Part shown: one piece after another, positions 23,325 to 38,939 of the stretch
How the letters are laid out: each line of letters opens with the position of its first letter
How positions within the stretch are numbered: position 1 is the first letter of the stretch
Notes under the pieces: generated by a model
What the model was told of the DNA's origin: nothing
Seen by the model: only the letters and a program-made list of their open reading frames with translations
Database searches by the model: none
Source: Roseovarius sp. SCSIO 43702
GTDB lineage: Bacteria; Pseudomonadota; Alphaproteobacteria; Rhodobacterales; Rhodobacteraceae
Length of the DNA: 64,000 bases
Reading direction: 5' to 3'
Assembly (NCBI RefSeq): GCF_019599045.1
Contig: NZ_CP080623.1
Location: 2,440,501-2,504,500 of the forward strand
Translations under genes and position numbers: made by a program

Positions 23325-23753
23325 ATGGCACTGAAATACCTACACACCATGGTCCGGGTGAAGGATCTCGACAAGACGATGGATTTCTTCCGCCTTCTCG
23401 GGCTCGAGGAAACCCGCCGCTGGGACAACGAAGAAGGGCGTTTCACCCTTGTTTTCATGGCGCCGCCGGGGCAAGAGGAATGCCCGGTCGAACTCACCTA
23501 CAACTGGGACGGCGACGATGGGCTGCCCTCCGACAGCCGGCATTTCGGCCACCTCGCCTACCAGGTCGACGACATCTACGCCACCTGCCAGCACCTCATG
23601 GATAGCGGCGTGACCATCAACCGGCCCCCGCGCGACGGCCACATGGCCTTCGTCCGCTCGCCCGACAACATCTCGATCGAGTTGCTTCAGGCCGGCGACG
23701 CGATCGAGAAGAAGGAGCCGTGGGCCAGCATGGAAAACACCGGCCATTGGTAA
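23325..23753 (+). CDS. gloA: Lactoylglutathione lyase (glyoxalase I)
   Basis: 142-residue vicinal-oxygen-chelate enzyme converting the methylglyoxal-glutathione adduct to S-lactoylglutathione. Likely metal ligands are His7, Glu56 (in PVELTYNW), His76 (in HFGHLAYQ) and Glu119 (in SIELLQ), spaced as in E. coli GloA. GAGGAGG sits eight bases before the ATG. The 155-base gap to thyX carries the divergent promoters. The end overlaps the possible start of the DUF1194 gene that follows. Confidence 0.94.
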   Translation: MALKYLHTMVRVKDLDKTMDFFRLLGLEETRRWDNEEGRFTLVFMAPPGQEECPVELTYNWDGDDGLPSDSRHFGHLAYQVDDIYATCQHLMDSGVTINRPPRDGHMAFVRSPDNISIELLQAGDAIEKKEPWASMENTGHW

Positions 23754-24460
23754 GGCTCGCCGCCTGCCTCGCGCTGATCCTGGTCGCGGGATCGGCGTGG
23801 TCCCAAGCCGCGCCCTGCCGGTTGGCGCTTGCGCTCGGGCTCGACGTATCGTCGTCGGTGGACGCGCGCGAGTATGACCTGCAACGCCTCGGCCTCGCTG
23901 CGGCACTCGACGCGCCAGAAGTGCGTCATGCGATCCTTTCGGGATCGCCCGGCGACGTGGCACTCGCGGTCTACGAATGGAGCGGTTTCAACCAGCAGAA
24001 GCTCCATCTCGACTGGACGCTCCTGCGCAGCAATGCCGATATCAACCGGGCCATCGCCGCCCTCGCCGCGATGGAGCGCAGCCACGACGATTTCCCGACG
24101 GCCATCGGACAGGGGCTCGGCTTCGGGGCGAATACCTTGGCCCGCGCGCCCGATTGCGCGCGCAAGGTGCTCGACATCTCCGGGGACGGGATCAACAACG
24201 CGGGCTTCGGCCCCGCGGCGGCCTATCGCCATTTCCCGTTCGAAGACGTTACCGTCAACGGGCTCGTCATCAGCCGGGACATCGAGAAGACCATCTCCTA
24301 CTATCGCGACAACGTGCTCTACGGGCCGGGCGCCTTCATGATCGTGACGGCCGATTTCGAAGGGTTCGCAGAGGCGATGGCCCGCAAGCTTCATCGCGAG
24401 ATCAACGACCTGGTATTCGGCGCGGCCCCCCGGGACCGCGCGCGACAGGCGCCGGGATGA
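23720..24460 (+). CDS. DUF1194 domain-containing secreted protein (copy 1)
   Basis: About 246 residues with a signal peptide (hydrophobic LAACLALILVAGSAWS). It has a von Willebrand A-type domain: the metal site DVSSSVDAREYDLQ matches DxSxS, and LDISGDGINNAG follows later. DUF1194 proteins are poorly characterised and presumably periplasmic. The start is unsure: GTG at 23720 lies inside gloA, while TTG at 23747 would shorten the N-terminus by nine residues. The stop overlaps the second DUF1194 gene by four bases. The two are tandem paralogues. Confidence 0.8.
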   Translation: MGQHGKHRPLVRLAACLALILVAGSAWSQAAPCRLALALGLDVSSSVDAREYDLQRLGLAAALDAPEVRHAILSGSPGDVALAVYEWSGFNQQKLHLDWTLLRSNADINRAIAALAAMERSHDDFPTAIGQGLGFGANTLARAPDCARKVLDISGDGINNAGFGPAAAYRHFPFEDVTVNGLVISRDIEKTISYYRDNVLYGPGAFMIVTADFEGFAEAMARKLHREINDLVFGAAPRDRARQAPG

Positions 24461-25344
24461 CCGGCCCGGGCAGAGCGAGACGGCCATGTCCAACGAGGGA
24501 GGATCAGGGCCCACCAGGCCGCCCGCACGTCACCGACCGGGGGCACGCACCGCAGGCGAGGCGCAGGCGCGGCCGCGTCGGCTGGGCTTGCGCCGCGCTC
24601 CTCGTCCTTGTCCAGCTCTCACTCCCCGCCCCGCTTCACGCGCAGGCCGAAAAACCCTGCCGGCTCGCCCTTGTCCTCGCGCTCGACGTGTCCGGCTCGG
24701 TCGATGCGCGCGAGTATCGCCAGCAACTCGACGGCACCGCGCGCGCGCTTCTCGACCCAGAGGTGCAGGCCGCGTTCTTCGCCCTCCCGGGCGCGTATGT
24801 CGAACTCGCCGCGTTCCAGTGGGCCGCGCGCGATCAGCAGCACCTGCTTCTCGACTGGACACCGGTGACATCCTCGGCCGTGCTGCGGGACATGGCGGCC
24901 CGGCTCGCCGAGGCCGCCGCACCGTTCGACGACCCGCAAACGGCCATCGGTGCGGCGATGCTCTTCGGGGAGGCGAAGCTGCGGGAGCGGGCCGGATGCT
25001 GGGCGCAGACCATGGATATCTCCGGAGATGGCCCCTCCAACCACGGCCCCTTCCCCGACGAGGTGCTGCGGGACCTGCCGCCGAACGTGACCGTCAACGC
25101 CCTCGTCATCGGGCCGGGGTCGCGCGACAACATCACCAAGAACCTCGCCAACGCCGGTACGCTTCTCGACTATTACGAGGCGCGGGTGCTGCGCGGCGCG
25201 GGTGCCTTCGCCGTCACGGCGCGCACCTTCGATGACTACGCCGACGCGCTCAAGGCAAAGCTCCTGCGCGAACTGCGCCCGCTGGCCGTGGCTTCGGCGC
25301 CTCCGGGCGGGCGGGCGCCTACCGGCCGGCTCGAACCTCAGTAG
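24457..25344 (+). CDS. DUF1194 domain-containing secreted protein (copy 2)
   Basis: 295 residues from the ATG overlapping the first copy's stop. An unusually long, Arg/Pro-rich N-terminus of about 40 residues precedes a signal-type hydrophobic segment (GWACAALLVLVQLSLPAPLHA). The metal site reads LDVSGSVDAREYRQQ, and MDISGDGPSNHGPF aligns with copy 1. Both copies begin their mature part with a cysteine in PCRLAL. The last seven bases overlap the end of the convergent MarR-family gene. Confidence 0.8.
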   Translation: MTGPGRARRPCPTREDQGPPGRPHVTDRGHAPQARRRRGRVGWACAALLVLVQLSLPAPLHAQAEKPCRLALVLALDVSGSVDAREYRQQLDGTARALLDPEVQAAFFALPGAYVELAAFQWAARDQQHLLLDWTPVTSSAVLRDMAARLAEAAAPFDDPQTAIGAAMLFGEAKLRERAGCWAQTMDISGDGPSNHGPFPDEVLRDLPPNVTVNALVIGPGSRDNITKNLANAGTLLDYYEARVLRGAGAFAVTARTFDDYADALKAKLLRELRPLAVASAPPGGRAPTGRLEPQ

Positions 25345-31445: not shown

Positions 31446-32339
31446 CTGGCGATCAAGATCGAAATGCTGCGCGTCTTCTGCGCCGTGGCCGACCACGGAA
31501 GCCTCGCCGACGCGGCCGAGGCCCTGGGGCGCACGCCCTCGGCCGTCTCGATGATGCTGCGCCGGTTCGAGGATCACATCGGCGCGCCGCTCTTCGAATC
31601 CGCGCGCAAGTCGCATCTCACCCCGCTCGGGCGCCTCATCCGGGACGAGGCCGCGCGCGAGCTCGAGCATTTCGAACGCACCGTGGCCCGCATCGAGGGG
31701 CTGGCACAGGCACGGCAGGGGCGCGTGCGCATCGCGGTCACGCCCTCCGTGGCCCAGGTCGTCATGCCGCCGATCCTGCGCCGTTTCATGGCCGACCATC
31801 CCGGTGTGCGCATCGAGATGAGCGACACCGACAGCGCCACGATCGAGCGCGAGCTCGAGGCGGGCCGTGCCGATATCGGACTCGCCACCATCGGCCCCAT
31901 GGCCGGGTTCGAGCGCGAATTGCTCTTCTCCGATCCCTATGGCGTCGTCTGTCCCGTCGATCACCGGCTGGCGCGGAACTGGTCGCGGCTCACCTGGGCC
32001 GACATGGCCGACACCACGCTCATCGCCAACGGGCTCTGCCGCCAGATCACCGACGAAGGCTTCCGGCCCATCCTCGAGGGCGCGACTCTCATGGTGCGCA
32101 ACACCGCCTCGCTCCTGAGCCTCGTGCGCTCGGGCGTGGGCGTGACGATCCTGCCGGAACTGGCGGTGCTGCCCGAGTTTCTCGACCTCGAGTTTCTCCC
32201 CCTGGTCGAGTGCTCGACCCGGCGCGAGGTCTGGATGTTCACCCGGCCCGACATCTTCATGACGCCCGCCACGCGCGCCTTCGTCGCCACGATCCGCGCA
32301 AGCAACGTCTCGGGGCGCGCAGAACTTCAGGATAACTGA
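31446..32339 (+). CDS. LysR family transcriptional regulator (apparent CTG start)
   Basis: 297 residues counted from a CTG at 31446. GGGAGG (31433-31438) stands seven bases before it, an in-frame stop lies at 31416-31418, and the first ATG (31464) is 25 bases from that site. The resulting [20 protein letters not shown] is a normal LysR N-terminus. The helix-turn-helix ([20 protein letters not shown]) is followed by a type-2 periplasmic-binding-like effector domain. It lies just upstream of the aldehyde dehydrogenase-dipeptidase-BCCT genes on the same strand and probably regulates them. Confidence 0.88.
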
Positions 32340-32428: not shown

Positions 32429-33880
32429 ATGACCGACATCAAACGGAATTTCATCGCGGGTGAATGGGTCGCGGGACCGTCCGAGATCGAGAATCGCAAT
32501 CCTTCGGACCTCTCCGACCTCGTGGGCACCTTCACGCAAGCCAGCGCCGCGCAGCTCGATGATGCGCTCGAGGCCGCCGCCCGTGCGCAGGCGGAATGGG
32601 CGGGCTACGCGCTGGAACGCAAGCAGGCCGTGCTCCTGGCCATCGGCAACGAGATGATGGAACGTGCCGAGGAACTGGGAACGCTCCTGTCGCGCGAGGA
32701 GGGCAAACCGCTGGCCGAGGGCAAGGGCGAAGTGTTCCGTGCGGGGCAGTTCTTCACCTACTACGCGCATGAAGTGCTGCGCCAACTGGGCGAGAACGCC
32801 GATTCCGTCCGCGCGGGCGTCGAGATCGACGTGCGGCGCGAGCCGGTCGGTGTCGTGGCCATCATCAGCCCGTGGAACTTCCCCACCGCGACCGCAAGCT
32901 GGAAGATCGCGCCCGCTCTCGCCTACGGCAACGCGGTGCTCTGGAAGCCGGCGAACGTGACCCCCGCCTCGGCCGTGGCGCTGACCGAGATCATCGCGAA
33001 ACAGGACATCCCGGCGGGCCTCTTCAACCTCGTGATGGGCGCAGGCAGCGAGGTAGGCCAGCGCCTGGTCGAATCGCCGAAACTCGACGCCATTTCCTTC
33101 ACCGGCTCGGTGCCCGTGGGGCGCGGCATCGCGCAGGCCGCGGTCGGCAACTTCACCCGCGTGCAGATGGAGATGGGCTCGAAGAACGCGCTCGCCGTGA
33201 TGGACGACGCCGATCTCGATCTGGCCGTGACGATCGCGCTTGGCGGCGCCTTCGGCGGCACGGGCCAGAAATGCACCGCCTCCTCTCGCCTCATCGTGCA
33301 CGAGGCCGTCCATGACGCCTTCGTCGAGAAACTCGTCGCCGGTGCGAAGGCGATGAAGGTGGGCCACGCGCTCGAACCCGGCACCCAGATGGGCCCCGTG
33401 GTCAGCGAGGGCCAGCTGACCGAGAACCTCTCCTGGGTCGAGAAGGGCCGCGCCGAGGGCGCCGAACTGGCCTGCGGCGGCGAACGACTCTCGCTCGATC
33501 ATGACGGCTACTACATGTCGCCCGGCGTTTTCCTCGGGACCACCAACGACATGGAGATCAACCGCGAGGAAATGTTCGCGCCCCTGACCTCCGTGATCAA
33601 GGTGGGTAGCTACGACGAAGCGCTTTCGGTCGTCAACGACACCCGCTTCGGCCTCGTCTCGGGCATCGCCACCACCTCGCTCGCCCGCGCCACGCATTTC
33701 CGGCGCAACGCCAGGACCGGCGTCGTGACGGTGAACCTGCCCACCGCCGGGACCGACTACCACGTCCCCTTCGGCGGCCGCGGCGAAAGCTCCTACGGCC
33801 CGCGCGAACAGGGCATCCACGCGCGCGACTTCTATACCGTGGTCAAGACCGCCTACATCTCGGCCGGGACGCCCGACTGA
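32429..33880 (+). CDS. Aldehyde dehydrogenase, ketoglutarate-semialdehyde type
   Basis: 483-residue NAD(P)-dependent aldehyde dehydrogenase. The Rossmann motif IISPWNFPTATASWK, the cofactor loop FTGSVPVGRGI, and the catalytic cysteine Cys282 in GQKCTASSR are visible. The late motif TAGTDYHVPFGGRGESSYGP is what I associate with 2-oxoglutarate-semialdehyde dehydrogenases, which end hydroxyproline, glucarate or arabinose breakdown. None of those upstream enzymes is here; instead an M19-like protein and a BCCT transporter follow. The true aldehyde substrate is therefore open. Confidence 0.88.
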   Translation: MTDIKRNFIAGEWVAGPSEIENRNPSDLSDLVGTFTQASAAQLDDALEAAARAQAEWAGYALERKQAVLLAIGNEMMERAEELGTLLSREEGKPLAEGKGEVFRAGQFFTYYAHEVLRQLGENADSVRAGVEIDVRREPVGVVAIISPWNFPTATASWKIAPALAYGNAVLWKPANVTPASAVALTEIIAKQDIPAGLFNLVMGAGSEVGQRLVESPKLDAISFTGSVPVGRGIAQAAVGNFTRVQMEMGSKNALAVMDDADLDLAVTIALGGAFGGTGQKCTASSRLIVHEAVHDAFVEKLVAGAKAMKVGHALEPGTQMGPVVSEGQLTENLSWVEKGRAEGAELACGGERLSLDHDGYYMSPGVFLGTTNDMEINREEMFAPLTSVIKVGSYDEALSVVNDTRFGLVSGIATTSLARATHFRRNARTGVVTVNLPTAGTDYHVPFGGRGESSYGPREQGIHARDFYTVVKTAYISAGTPD

Positions 33881-33920: not shown

Positions 33921-34916
33921 ATGACCTATCGCATCGACTGCCTCCAATATGCCAACTGGTCGGAGAAGATCTTCCGCCAGATGCGCGAGGGCGGCGTCGA
34001 TGCCGTCCACGTCACGATCAGCTACCACGAGAATTTCCGCGAAACCGTCCTCAACATCGAGAAATGGAACCGCTGGTTCGAGCGGTTCCCCGACCTCATC
34101 TTCCACGGCCAATGGGCCAGCGATGTCGAACATGCGCGCGACACGAACCGCACCGCGATCTTCTTCGGCTTCCAGAACCCCGCGCCCATCGAGGACGACA
34201 TCGGCCTGGTCGAGATCGTCCACAAGCTCGGTGCGCGGTTCATGCAACTGACCTACAACAACCAGTCGCTGCTCGCGACGGGATGCTACGAGGACGAGGA
34301 CACCGGCCTCACGCGAATGGGCAAGCAGGTCGTGCGCGAGATGAACCGCGTGGGGCTCGTCATCGACATGAGCCATTCCGCCGACCGCTCCACCATCGAG
34401 GCCGCCGACCACTCGACTCGGCCCATCGCCATCACCCACGCCAACCTGCATTCCTGGGCTCCCGCCCTGCGCAACAAGCGCGACGACGTGATCCGCGCGG
34501 TGACGTCAAACGGCGGGATGATGGGCTTCTCGATGTATCCCCACCACCTGAAGGACAGGTCCGACTGCACGCTCCGGTCCTTCTGCGAGATGGTGGCCAC
34601 CGCTGCCGAAACCTTCGGGGTGGACCATTTCGGCATCGGCTCGGACCTCTGCCAGGATCAGCCCGACAGCGTCGTCGAATGGATGCGCACGGGCCGCTGG
34701 TCGAAGGAGATCGACTACGGAGAAGGCTCCGCCGCCGCACCGGGCTTCCCCGAGCAACCCGACTGGTTCCGCGACAACCGCGATTTCGACAAGATCGAGG
34801 CGGGCCTGCGTGACGTGGGCTTCTCCGAGGCCGAGGTCGCAGGTCTCATGGGCGGCAACTGGCACCGATTTTTCGCCGAGAGTTTCGGCCCCGAAGGCAC
34901 CGCGTCGGGGGGCTGA
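33921..34916 (+). CDS. Peptidase M19-like protein with altered metal site
   Basis: 331 residues of the membrane-dipeptidase (M19) amidohydrolase fold but without signal peptide. The N-terminal HxD zinc motif of active dipeptidases is replaced: DGHND corresponds to DCLQY (residues 6-10). The bridging glutamate position reads FGFQNP (Gln85). His152 (DMSH), His173 (ITHAN) and Asp242 (GIGSD) remain. From memory it resembles the dipeptidase-annotated gene beside the dimethylglycine-demethylase genes of Pseudomonas. It lies 40 bases after the aldehyde dehydrogenase and 43 before the BCCT gene. It may be a hydrolase of a non-peptide substrate. Confidence 0.82.
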   Translation: MTYRIDCLQYANWSEKIFRQMREGGVDAVHVTISYHENFRETVLNIEKWNRWFERFPDLIFHGQWASDVEHARDTNRTAIFFGFQNPAPIEDDIGLVEIVHKLGARFMQLTYNNQSLLATGCYEDEDTGLTRMGKQVVREMNRVGLVIDMSHSADRSTIEAADHSTRPIAITHANLHSWAPALRNKRDDVIRAVTSNGGMMGFSMYPHHLKDRSDCTLRSFCEMVATAAETFGVDHFGIGSDLCQDQPDSVVEWMRTGRWSKEIDYGEGSAAAPGFPEQPDWFRDNRDFDKIEAGLRDVGFSEAEVAGLMGGNWHRFFAESFGPEGTASGG

Positions 34917-34959: not shown

Positions 34960-36516
34960 GTGACCGACACCACAGAGAAATCCAGCAGCGGAGGCGCGGA
35001 TATCGCGCATATCAACACGCCGCTCTTCATCATCACCGGCGGCTTCATCGCGCTATTCTGCGTCGTGGCCCTCATCGACATCGAGTTCCTCTCGGCCATC
35101 GTCGATGCGAGCTTCGCGTTCTGCGCGAAGTATTTCGGTCTCTATTGGCAGGTTCTCCTGCTCGCCACCTTCCTGATCGGGCTGCTTCTGATCGTCCTGC
35201 CCGGCGGGCGCGCGATCATGGGGCTTGCCACCACGCCCGAATTCACCGTCTTCCAATGGGGCGCGATGATCATGTGCACGCTCCTGGCGGGGGGCGGCGT
35301 CTTCTGGGCAGCGGGAGAGCCCATGGCGCATTTCCTCTCGCCCCCGCCCTATTTCGGCGGCGAAGGCGGAACGGCCGAGGCGGTAGTTCCCGCCCTCGCG
35401 CAGAGCTTCATGCACTGGGGGTTTCTCGCCTGGGCGATCCTCGGCTCGCTCTCGGCCGTGATGCTGATGCACTACCACTACGAGAAGGGGCTGCCCATGG
35501 CGCCCCGGACGCTTCTCTACCCGGTCTTCGGCGACCGCGCGATCAACGGGCCGATCGGCTGGATCGCGGATGCCTCCTGCATCATCGCCGTGGTGGCGGG
35601 CACCGTGGGCCCGGTGGGCTTTCTCGGGCTCCAGGTCAGCTACGGGCTCAACGCCCTTTTCGGCATCCCCGACAGCTTCGTGACACAGACCTGCGTCATC
35701 GCGGCGCTGGTGGCCATCTACACGATCTCGGCCATCACCGGACTTTCGAGGGGCATTCAGTTCCTCAGCCGCGTCAACGTGATCCTCGCCGGCATCCTGT
35801 TGATCTTCATGCTGATCGCGGGTCCGACCGCCTTCATCTTCAAGAGCTACGTGGCAGGCTTCTCGACCTACATCACCGATTTCTTCGGCATGGCGCTCTA
35901 TCGCGGCGATGCGGCCGCCTTCGGCGATCCCGGCTGGCTCGGGTGGTGGACGGTTTTCTTCTGGGGATGGTTCATGGGCTACGGCCCGCTCATGGCGATG
36001 TTCATCGCGCGCATCTCGCGCGGGCGGTCGATCCGGGCGATCGTGATCATGCTCTCGATCGTCGCGCCCGTGGTCACGACCTTCTGGTTCACCATCGTGG
36101 GCGGGTCGGGCATCGCCTTCGAACTGGCCAATCCCGGCTCGGTCTCGACGGCGTTCGAAGGCTTCAACCTGCCCGCCGCGCTCCTCGCGATCACGCAGCA
36201 GATGCCATGGGGCTTCCTCGTTTCGGTGCTGTTCCTGATCCTCACCACGATCTTCGTGGCCACGACGGGCGATTCGATGACCTACGTGATCTCTGTCGCC
36301 ATGTCCGACGAGGACCGCAGCGCGACCCCGGTGCGCGTCTTCTGGGGCGTGGCGATGGGGGTGATGGCGCTCATCCTGATCGGAACCGGCGGCGGCGGCA
36401 TCGGCAAGCTGCAGAGCTTCATCGTCGTCACCGCCGTTCCCGTCTCGCTCATCCTGCTGCCGTCGCTCTGGGACGCGCTGCGGATCACGCTGGCCAAGGG
36501 CCGCGAGGGGGCGTGA
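34960..36516 (+). CDS. BCCT family transporter
   Basis: 518-residue inner-membrane carrier with about twelve helices, of the betaine/carnitine/choline family. The start is GTG at 34960 after AAAGGGAGAG. The signature region reads WWTVFFWGWFMGYGPLMAMF then IARISRGRSIR (from residue 329). Typical members have WAWWxxWxPF here, so two aromatic positions of the usual trimethylammonium box are changed (FMGYGPL). It is coupled by position to the M19-like and aldehyde dehydrogenase genes. It probably imports a betaine-like or other zwitterionic compound; not necessarily glycine betaine. Confidence 0.88.
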   Translation: MTDTTEKSSSGGADIAHINTPLFIITGGFIALFCVVALIDIEFLSAIVDASFAFCAKYFGLYWQVLLLATFLIGLLLIVLPGGRAIMGLATTPEFTVFQWGAMIMCTLLAGGGVFWAAGEPMAHFLSPPPYFGGEGGTAEAVVPALAQSFMHWGFLAWAILGSLSAVMLMHYHYEKGLPMAPRTLLYPVFGDRAINGPIGWIADASCIIAVVAGTVGPVGFLGLQVSYGLNALFGIPDSFVTQTCVIAALVAIYTISAITGLSRGIQFLSRVNVILAGILLIFMLIAGPTAFIFKSYVAGFSTYITDFFGMALYRGDAAAFGDPGWLGWWTVFFWGWFMGYGPLMAMFIARISRGRSIRAIVIMLSIVAPVVTTFWFTIVGGSGIAFELANPGSVSTAFEGFNLPAALLAITQQMPWGFLVSVLFLILTTIFVATTGDSMTYVISVAMSDEDRSATPVRVFWGVAMGVMALILIGTGGGGIGKLQSFIVVTAVPVSLILLPSLWDALRITLAKGREGA

Positions 36517-36551: not shown

Positions 36552-36606
36552 TACCTTGTCGCAATGGATTGACCCACGATCAGACGCCATCCGCCGGAGA
36601 CCGCCG

Positions 36607-38295
36607 ATGACCTCGATGACCCCGATCCCGCCACGCGATCCGCGCACCGTCATGCGCCTGGCGCGCATGGGCTCGCTTCATCAATGCCGGCTCAGCTTCA
36701 TGCGCACCCTCCTGCGCCGCCTGAAATCCGACGCGTGGCGCTTCGAGACGACCGCCTTCGAGATCGACGCGAAGGGTGTCGGCCACGCGGTCTACACCGC
36801 CCATGGTCCCCGCCACAGCTATTCGCTCGTGGCCTTCGCCCATGACCTGCCCGCAGACCAACGCTCGGACCGGGTGATCGCGACCGCCTGGGACGCGACC
36901 TTCGCCCTTTTCGACGGCATCCCCTCCGACGCGGACATCGCGCGCCTCCGCCAGAACGTGCCCAGGCAGGAGGCCGGGCGCCTTTCGGACCGCGAATTGT
37001 CGCTCAGCCGCGCCAACCGCTCGGTGCGCCTCTGGGACCACGTGGTCGACGCGCTGGCGCAGGGCCACCAACCCGACGCCGCGCGCATCCGCGAGGTGGG
37101 CTACCTGATGCGCACCACCGCCGTCTACGGCTCGGGCAAGTTCGGCGCGGCGGACCGCGAACAATCCGGCCGGCGCGAGGAATGCCGCGGCCCCTTCCAG
37201 GTCGAGATGCTCTCGGTCTATCTCACCCGCGCCTTCGTGATGGACCTTGTCGAGCACATGGCCCGGATGCGCGCACCCGAAACCGCGGTGCCGCTTGCGC
37301 CCGCGCTGCGCCGCACCTTCGGGATCGGCAATTCCACCGGCCTCGGCATGGCGCCGTTCCTCATGAACCACCCCGTCCTCATCAATCACTGGATGGCCGC
37401 CCGCGAAGAGGCCATCGCCCGCGTGCGCTCGCTCCCCACCGCGACCGAGGACGAGGCCCGCGCCTTCCGCGACTACGCCGCCCGCGCACGTCTTCACGCC
37501 GAGGACTGGACGTCGGATCACCCCGTCCAGGTCTCGCGCATCGCCGATCTGCGCGCCGACATGGCCCATCTCGCCGCCCATCTCCAGACCGCCGATCTCA
37601 CCACCGATCGCCCCTGGCAACGGCTCTGGCAATGGGCCGAGGATCGCTGCTCGCTCGAGGGGCAGGAACAGGTGGCGTCGCTCCTGATGGAGCCCTACGG
37701 CCATCTCGTCGACGGCCTCACGTCCTGCATGGATGCCGACGAGCAGGAGGTCATGCGCATCGACGGCGCCATGCGCACGCCCGCGCTTCTGGCACTCACC
37801 CGCGATATCTACGACTGGGCGCTCGCGCTCGACTGGTCGAACCCCAACACGCAGGCCCGCCTCTGGTATGTCTCCGAGGCCAAGCTCGAGCCGCGCCTGG
37901 CCGAGCGTGCCGAAGAGCCGCTCGAGCCTTACGAACAACCTCTCTGCCCGGGCCGCGACGCGGCGCGCATGTATGACGACCTGAAGGATGTCCCGGATAC
38001 GACCGTGGCCGAATTCCTGCTGCGCCACCCCGAGCATCGCCATATCGTCCGCCGCGCGCAGATCGCCGGGCGCTACCCCTATGCCGAGATCCGCGACAAC
38101 ACGATCGACGCGGGGCTCATGCCCATCGACCTGCTGCGCGCCAAGCTCAGCTTCTTCGGCGCCTGCCATTTCGATCCGCGCTCCGACCGCTGGCTGCGGA
38201 TCACCATGTTCCAGCACGCCCCCTTCCCCGACGAGCTGGCGACCGGCAATGCCGACGACTGGACCTATCCCTACCTTCCCGAGGCCGCCCAATGA
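36607..38295 (+). CDS. Conserved hypothetical protein
   Basis: 562-residue soluble protein of unknown function; I recognise no enzyme motif. It is Arg-, Asp- and Trp-rich, has no signal or membrane segment, and contains conserved-looking stretches such as GHAVYTAHGPRHSYSLVAFAHD, EVGYLMRTTAVYGSGKFG and FGIGNSTGLGMAPFLMNHP, the last two hinting at a ligand site. The ATG at 36607 is used; an upstream TTG would run into the hairpin region. It overlaps the DUF3726-like gene by four bases and follows the BCCT gene by 90 bases, so a role with the imported compound is possible. Confidence 0.78.
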   Translation: MTSMTPIPPRDPRTVMRLARMGSLHQCRLSFMRTLLRRLKSDAWRFETTAFEIDAKGVGHAVYTAHGPRHSYSLVAFAHDLPADQRSDRVIATAWDATFALFDGIPSDADIARLRQNVPRQEAGRLSDRELSLSRANRSVRLWDHVVDALAQGHQPDAARIREVGYLMRTTAVYGSGKFGAADREQSGRREECRGPFQVEMLSVYLTRAFVMDLVEHMARMRAPETAVPLAPALRRTFGIGNSTGLGMAPFLMNHPVLINHWMAAREEAIARVRSLPTATEDEARAFRDYAARARLHAEDWTSDHPVQVSRIADLRADMAHLAAHLQTADLTTDRPWQRLWQWAEDRCSLEGQEQVASLLMEPYGHLVDGLTSCMDADEQEVMRIDGAMRTPALLALTRDIYDWALALDWSNPNTQARLWYVSEAKLEPRLAERAEEPLEPYEQPLCPGRDAARMYDDLKDVPDTTVAEFLLRHPEHRHIVRRAQIAGRYPYAEIRDNTIDAGLMPIDLLRAKLSFFGACHFDPRSDRWLRITMFQHAPFPDELATGNADDWTYPYLPEAAQ

Positions 38296-38939
38296 GCTGG
38301 TCGCTGAACGAGGTCGAGGGGCTTTCGCGCCGGGCCACGCGCGGCGCGGGGCTGAGCTGGGGCCTGGCCGAGGACGCGGGCCGTGCGATCCGCTGGATCT
38401 GCGCCATGGGACTGCCGGGGGCCGACGCGCTGGCGCGGGTTCTGACCGAGATCGACGGCGCGGAATACGAACGGATTGCGCCGCGCGACCTCGGGCCCGA
38501 ATGGCGCGCGCCGGGCGAACGGCTCTGCCCGCTCGTCGCCGGCGCGGCGCTGTGCGACATGGCGGGCACACTGGCCGAGGGCGCCGGGATCTCGCTCTTC
38601 GACGTGCCGCAACCGCTGCTGCTCTATCCCTACCTGGCCGCCGCTTCGGACATGACCGGCTGTGCCCTCCGGCTCTCGTGGGAGGATACGGTCCTCACCC
38701 GCCACGCGCGCGTGACCTACCTGCAAAGCGATGCGCCCGACGCCGCCTTCGCGGCGCGCGTCGATGTTGCACGCGCGCCCGGAGAGCCCCTGGGCCGGCC
38801 CGCGCGGCGCGCCTGGCGCGGCGACATCTCGACCGATACCGCCCGGATCCTCGGCGATTTCGCCCGCCGCACCTACGCGCCCGAAACCGACGCGCGCCGC
38901 ATGGCCGGCGCCGGCGCCGGGCTTACCGACAACGACTGA
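38292..38939 (+). CDS. DUF3726-like protein
   Basis: 215-residue soluble protein. The N-terminus MSWSLNEVEGLSRRATRGAG, followed by WGLAEDAGRAIRWICAMGLPG, matches what I remember of DUF3726, a family without known function. The C-terminus is Ala/Arg-rich. Its start lies within the stop of the 562-residue gene (ATGA), so the two proteins are made together and may form a complex. Confidence 0.75.
   Translation: MSWSLNEVEGLSRRATRGAGLSWGLAEDAGRAIRWICAMGLPGADALARVLTEIDGAEYERIAPRDLGPEWRAPGERLCPLVAGAALCDMAGTLAEGAGISLFDVPQPLLLYPYLAAASDMTGCALRLSWEDTVLTRHARVTYLQSDAPDAAFAARVDVARAPGEPLGRPARRAWRGDISTDTARILGDFARRTYAPETDARRMAGAGAGLTDND

Follow-up and report, generated by a model that had tools for sequence, protein, structure and literature searches.

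An M19 dipeptidase-like protein of Roseovarius without the two-metal motifs, in a conserved gene cluster possibly devoted to homarine

The window, a stretch of 64,000 nucleotides from Roseovarius sp. SCSIO 43702 (NZ_CP080623.1, positions 2,440,501 to 2,504,500), encodes on its forward strand a 331-residue protein (33921..34916) of the peptidase M19 family that lacks the HxD motif and the bridging glutamate of active renal-type dipeptidases. By fold and clade, the gene product belongs to the amidohydrolase superfamily as a relative of the M19 dipeptidases, and it is predicted to be cytoplasmic. The reading favored here, with a probability of roughly 0.4, is that this altered-site enzyme serves an operon that would import a betaine and end in an N-methyl amino acid, homarine being the best candidate substrate.

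Active site of the M19-like protein

Membership in Peptidase_M19 (PF01244) is supported by both sequence and fold: the profile match reaches 246 bits (cut-off 26) and begins at profile position 33. On the first strand, the HxD metal ligands are replaced by Leu8 and Tyr10 within the sequence DCLQY (residues 6-10). In the profile alignment to Sco3058 (3id7), Gln85, part of FQNP (residues 84-87), falls on the bridging glutamate of the EGG motif. A preliminary description of this DNA had read both losses from the translation, and the alignment supports them; it also reveals a third change, Tyr112 on the histidine of the LTHN motif. The second-site histidine pair and the late-strand aspartate are retained in the same alignment (His152, His173 and Asp242, at the positions first given), and Arg184 is kept as well.

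Since the protein begins MTYRIDCLQY, no signal peptide is possible, in agreement with the preliminary description. A wrongly chosen start codon was ruled out: database relatives measure 323-331 residues (120 matches listed), and the open frame that continues upstream (393 codons) enters the aldehyde dehydrogenase gene, so that an earlier start would overlap it. The start strings shared among relatives are no independent proof, as the relatives' starts were chosen nearest to that of the window protein.

A true two-metal dipeptidase drawing its ligands from other positions is very improbable. The fold and the remaining histidine pair are kept, and Glu37, the candidate substitute, is invariant in a 37-row alignment of relatives (A2). 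However, both HxD residues, the bridging glutamate and the equivalent of His152 of human DPEP1 are all lost, and the neighboring genes are not peptide genes. Glu37 is also frequent in proteins that still bear HxD, unlike what a replacement would show, and is not claimed as a metal ligand here.

The Gln85 branch of the M19 family

The altered pattern is the mark of a whole clade. It was followed in 77 M19 proteins, comprising the 37 rows of alignment A2 and 40 further loci hand-picked from hits in a 398-genome sample of the phylum (two rows, L146 and L193, are one gene). Sixteen proteins carry His8, Asp10 and Glu85, six carry His8 and Glu85 without Asp10, and 54 carry Gln85 with neither His8 nor Asp10; the N-terminus of one is missing. 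Gln85 is combined with HxD in none of the 77 rows, while His152, His173, Arg184 and Asp242 are retained in all of them. A single branch of the maximum-likelihood tree (support 96/89, recovered in 95% of 200 bootstrap trees) separates the 55 Gln85 rows from the others; some branches of this tree are long. The losses of HxD and of the bridging glutamate therefore mark one lineage, and chance or annotation error as the source of the altered motif is ruled out. Within the Gln85 side, proteins of the dimethylglycine (dgc) operon type lie in a 12-row branch and the window protein in a 33-row branch.

Alignment A2 contains 25 invariant columns among proteins down to 32% identity, which rules out a decaying pseudogene. 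These columns include Gln85, Gln109, Tyr112, His152, His173, Arg184 and Asp242. Most likely, the enzyme works with a single metal at His152/His173 or without metal. Conservation suggests that these two histidines, perhaps with Gln85, would hold the metal if there is one, with Asp242 as acid/base and Tyr112 also catalytic. A non-hydrolytic lyase or isomerase on the M19 scaffold (decarboxylase or imine hydratase, with or without metal) is quite improbable: Tyr112 and Gln85 would suit acid/base chemistry, and the amidohydrolase fold includes decarboxylases and metal-free lactonases, but the occurrence of secreted branch members beside other hydrolases (by eye) favors hydrolysis. The secreted members are represented by seven Gln85-type proteins with N-terminal signal-like sequences (L215-L219, L222 and L223), probably exported, some of which adjoin amidohydrolase-, beta-lactamase- or peptidase-like genes (by eye).

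Five of the six proteins with His8 and Glu85 alone (L183, L186, L189, L194 and L201) form one branch, in which HxC or HxG stands for HxD, the bridging glutamate is kept and position 112 is a tyrosine. This branch adjoins the Gln85 branch as an intermediate state. At locus L226, a protein of this branch lies next to genes resembling hydantoinase/oxoprolinase subunits (by eye).

Those listed relatives that bear a name in their source databases are called membrane dipeptidase, peptidase M19 or Zn-dependent dipeptidase, names that are probably wrong as to both metal use and substrate. At least 8000 database relatives exist (every scored candidate matched; the set is a mixture with clades unsorted), and the window protein is probably one of a large, mis-named branch of the family, not an oddity. 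Corrected names would set right a large number of marine gene annotations. The series HxD/Glu, HxC/Glu and no HxD/Gln also offers natural material for asking how an amidohydrolase loses its metal.

Gene cluster and its conservation

The M19-like gene is the third of six genes on the forward strand, separated by gaps of 89, 40, 43, 39 and -4 bp. The first encodes a LysR-family regulator (31464..32339), a recurrent neighbor that is on the same strand here and divergent in many relatives. It is followed by an aldehyde dehydrogenase (32429..33880), whose best NCBIfam profiles, 2,5-dioxovalerate and alpha-ketoglutarate semialdehyde dehydrogenase, are five-carbon dicarboxylic semialdehyde types, both matched below cut-off. 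Downstream of the M19-like gene are a transporter of the betaine/carnitine/choline family (BCCT, 34960..36516, by profile match), whose nearest equivalog, glycine betaine uptake, is matched below its cut-off, and a protein of about 570 residues (36556..38295) with an uncertain start, either TTG at 36556 (579 residues) or ATG at 36607 (562 residues). The last gene (38292..38939) encodes a DUF3726 protein and overlaps the 570-residue gene by 4 bp.

Gene order is conserved across the best 80 of 376 relatives on genome contigs. Of these 80 loci, 78 have the M19-like gene next to the aldehyde dehydrogenase gene, and 72 have the 570-residue gene next to the DUF3726 gene. The M19-like and 570-residue genes are direct neighbors in 53 and have the BCCT gene between them in 26; an Ldh_2-type dehydrogenase occurs in 42 of the 80 loci. 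In loci L088-L116 and L117-L146, about 1.5 kb was seen on each side. The full set occurs in roseobacters, and a Ruegeria pomeroyi strain (L068) bears the cluster. Two genomes that share the phylum but not the class (L151 and L152) carry aldehyde dehydrogenase, M19-like, BCCT, 570-residue and DUF3726-type genes in this order (the last by eye in L152), flanked near one end by a divergent LysR gene and by RidA, the latter from a scan of L151 alone. The conserved order itself is plain, and the M19-like gene is predicted to serve a catabolic operon.

Among 289 sampled genomes of the class, 39 encode the 570-residue protein, and 38 of these also encode an M19-like protein (E 1e-30 or better). The two genes lie within 2 kb of each other in 33 of the 39, the others being G034, G057 (4.7 kb), G064, G088, G122 and G163. 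This proximity, together with the three changed catalytic positions, would suit a catalytically dead M19-like protein that acts as scaffold or partner of the 570-residue protein. Such a role is unlikely: the seven invariant residues named above point to a working pocket, and the dgc-type relatives L156 and L160 have no 570-residue protein in 13 kb.

The pair extends to SAR11, since the 570-residue protein of genome G207 is identical from end to end with a protein that carries the name Candidatus Pelagibacter sp. RS39. In RS39 (L147), the M19-like, 570-residue and DUF3726 genes stand together, these three only.

Several loci show the genes in other company. Divergent M19-like and 570-residue genes adjoin SoxBAG-like genes in L149, the pair adjoins a DMGDH-like gene in L162 (by eye), and a 70%-identical M19-like gene in L232 adjoins SoxB/SoxA and TRAP-transporter-like genes (the latter by eye). 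One island of genome G065 (L228, 845-14507) combines M19-like, 570-residue and Ldh_2-like genes with an S-adenosylmethionine-dependent carboxyl methyltransferase, an FMO-like protein (Pfam), a GlxA-like regulator (by eye) and SoxB/SoxA.

Elsewhere in the window, the proteins of two adjoining frames (23720..25344) resemble each other and look VWA-like (DUF1194-like, by eye); the frames may be a tandem pair.

Transport and oxidation of N-methyl amino acids

Linkage and co-occurrence suggest that BCCT or OpuA-type transporters would import a betaine and that the pathway would end in an N-methyl amino acid oxidized by a SoxBDAG-type dehydrogenase. In genome G030 (L148), an operon with an OpuAC glycine-betaine-type binding protein leads into the aldehyde dehydrogenase gene. 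In G161, the genes next to the cluster have SoxB, SoxA and SoxG as their best profile hits, none reaching its curated cut-off. A SoxA-like protein (E 1e-150 or better, usually with two candidates scored per genome and incomplete genomes included) is found in 34 of the 39 genomes that encode the 570-residue protein vs 71 of the 250 others (Fisher p 2e-12, phylogeny ignored); two such proteins are found in 26 of 39 vs 24 of 250 (p 4e-14, likewise). The cluster genomes with no SoxA-like hit are G036, G074, G084, G173 and G269. At distances chosen after looking at the data, a SoxA-like gene lies within 8 kb of the M19-like or 570-residue gene in at least four of the 34 genomes (G057, G065, G161 and G207) vs 0.47 expected, and within 20 kb in at least five (G258 added) vs 0.98 expected. 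The 8 kb in G065 is measured from the 570-residue gene, the M19-like gene being 9.2 kb off.

The genome of the window contains two SoxA-type complexes outside the cluster. At G000:C1:1830686-1840841 (L085), it also has gmaS-like and Tmm-like genes and separate genes for glutamate-synthase-like subunits (by eye and from profiles below cut-off); methylated-amine metabolism is probably present.

Homarine as candidate substrate

Homarine (N-methylpicolinate) has five ring carbons and a carboxyl group on an N-methylated ring, and cutting its C5-C6 bond turns C6 into an N-formyl group on a glutamate-semialdehyde skeleton. Homarine would be converted to N-methylglutamate. Speculatively, C5-C6 ring cleavage would give an intermediate resembling N-formyl-N-methyl-glutamate-semialdehyde, whose aldehyde the aldehyde dehydrogenase would oxidize, while the M19-like enzyme would remove the N-acyl (formyl) group or open a cyclic amide or enol-lactone. 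Aldehyde oxidation and formyl removal would together yield N-methylglutamate and formate, with the M19-like enzyme as a deformylase or ring-opening hydrolase. The preliminary description had suggested a betaine-derived amide or lactone as substrate. That candidate fits the BCCT and OpuAC-type transporters, and the idea that the protein is no peptidase but works on a betaine derivative is plausible, with better support now than before.

Published work bears on this proposal in several places. N-methylglutamate dehydrogenase (Mgd) takes part in homarine catabolism, according to the accessible part of a 2026 trimethylamine paper citing Ferrer-Gonzalez et al. The part of PMC12817926 available describes uptake of diatom-derived homarine by R. 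pomeroyi, with a mean lifetime of at most 2 h, and in the passages seen of PMC9038784 homarine is listed only as a diatom metabolite. The word homarine is absent from PMC8027193 and PMC9870897. In a literature search with most subscription papers beyond its range, homarine with peptidase returned only a paper on cnidarian toxins (by title), while nothing was found for DUF3726, for membrane dipeptidase with aldehyde dehydrogenase and Ruegeria pomeroyi, or for 2I5G with dipeptidase (the metal-site loss is not claimed to be unreported). PA5396 and tgnC were not among the matches listed for PA5396/dgcA and for the trigonelline pathway, respectively.

Several observations weigh against the homarine assignment. 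No Ldh_2 gene is adjacent in the window, the nearest homologue in the genome being 43% identical and about 32 kb beyond the DUF3726 gene. Aldehyde dehydrogenase, LysR and Ldh_2 genes were not recognized beside the RS39 trio within 14 kb (L147). A few kb from that trio there are genes that look GcvT- and Rieske-like (by eye), and a dimethylsulfoniopropionate (DMSP) demethylase, scoring over its cut-off, neighbors the cluster in L148; these genes would suit osmolytes other than homarine. Since RS39 and L148 carry them, the cluster genes of small-genome bacteria stand in a mixed island of osmolyte genes. L148 also contains gamma-butyrobetaine-hydroxylase-like and enolase-superfamily genes (by eye). 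The SoxA-like hits do not tell sarcosine oxidase from Mgd, the choice of 8 and 20 kb followed inspection, and both the co-occurrence and the linkage statistics ignore phylogeny, the former habitat as well. Members of the Gln85 branch also occur in other settings, namely the dgc operon and secreted forms, so a single reaction for all of them is unlikely. Finally, the accessible text of PMC9723723 (2022) counts homarine among compounds with no confirmed transporter in R. pomeroyi.

The chief competitor keeps the same enzyme type and assigns the operon to another betaine or N-methylated compound, such as proline betaine, trigonelline, a carnitine-like compound or a glycine betaine derivative. It is a real possibility, although doubtful. 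BCCT and OpuA-type transporters carry many betaines, the closest BCCT equivalog concerns glycine betaine, the aldehyde dehydrogenase profile is unspecific, and a sister clade is found in the dimethylglycine operon; the GcvT-, Rieske-like and DMSP demethylase genes near the trio point the same way. On the other side, inspection by eye recognized no Rieske demethylase or DgcAB gene next to the cluster, either in the window or in R. pomeroyi, and homarine is the better match for an aldehyde dehydrogenase of the five-carbon semialdehyde type, below cut-off as that assignment is. The partial set in RS39, with just three genes together, makes the homarine reading somewhat less probable and this competitor somewhat more so.

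A broader proposal, put forward tentatively, is that one widespread M19 branch gave up the two-metal centre for a His/His/Gln one-metal or a metal-free site with a tyrosine and an aspartate, and that the sub-clade of the window protein performs an uncharacterised homarine step (N-deacylation or ring opening) together with a 570-residue enzyme common to roseobacters and SAR11.

The 570-residue protein and DUF3726

Searched as a 574-residue piece (36571-38292), the 570-residue protein matches no Pfam or NCBIfam family, and a 48-sequence profile finds no PDB entry with E below 0.25. Its 48 sequences share 35 invariant columns, eleven of them arginine. The protein is a target in the hunt for a ring-attacking enzyme. 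DUF3726 may be a reduced relative of Ldh_2-type dehydrogenases; the match to their N-terminal region (hhalign probability 36%, E 0.0004, 58 columns) was rejected as too weak to establish this. A corrected reading of the M19-like genes would place both proteins in a marine osmolyte pathway that can be put to the test.

Comparison with known systems

The window protein is 22-27% identical to three M19 dipeptidases, Sco3058 (3id7), human DPEP1 (1itq) and GliJ (5lwz), and differs from them by lacking HxD, the bridging glutamate and the equivalent of His152 of DPEP1. Single-metal amidohydrolases of the NagA type likewise keep only the histidine pair and late-strand aspartate of one site. Their ligand set is Glu/His/His; the window protein has both histidines, but Gln85 in place of the glutamate.

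The cluster is likely the hom operon, which it would resemble in gene number and, in part, in taxonomic range. Ferrer-Gonzalez et al., in Nat Microbiol in 2026, reportedly described homABCDER, an operon of Rhodobacterales, SAR11 and SAR116 with N-methylglutamate as product. Its reported five enzyme genes and regulator compare with five recurrent enzyme genes and LysR in the roseobacters here; the range is said to include SAR11, where RS39 has three genes together, a partial fit.

A link to dimethylglycine genes in Pseudomonas had also been pointed out in the preliminary description. The link is real for relatives: the Pseudomonas dgc operon contains a dipeptidase gene, and in Vibrio natriegens and P. 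aeruginosa such a gene precedes dgcAB along with a hypothetical one (PMC8079746 and PMC12093977, in the parts available). Locus L160 agrees: the genes that follow a relative 33% identical to the window protein encode DUF5943 and a DgcA-like Oxidored_FMN protein. The link does not extend to the window protein, which belongs to the 33-row sister clade and has no DUF5943/DgcA neighborhood. Homologues with Gln85 and no HxD fall into separate sub-clades, the dgc type beside DUF5943 and DgcA, the window type in an operon of its own with aldehyde dehydrogenase, BCCT, the 570-residue protein and DUF3726. The structure 2i5g, an 'amidohydrolase' of Pseudomonas aeruginosa, is presumably PA5396 of the dgc operon, and the features of its sub-clade (no HxD, Gln85 and Tyr112) are all present in the window protein.
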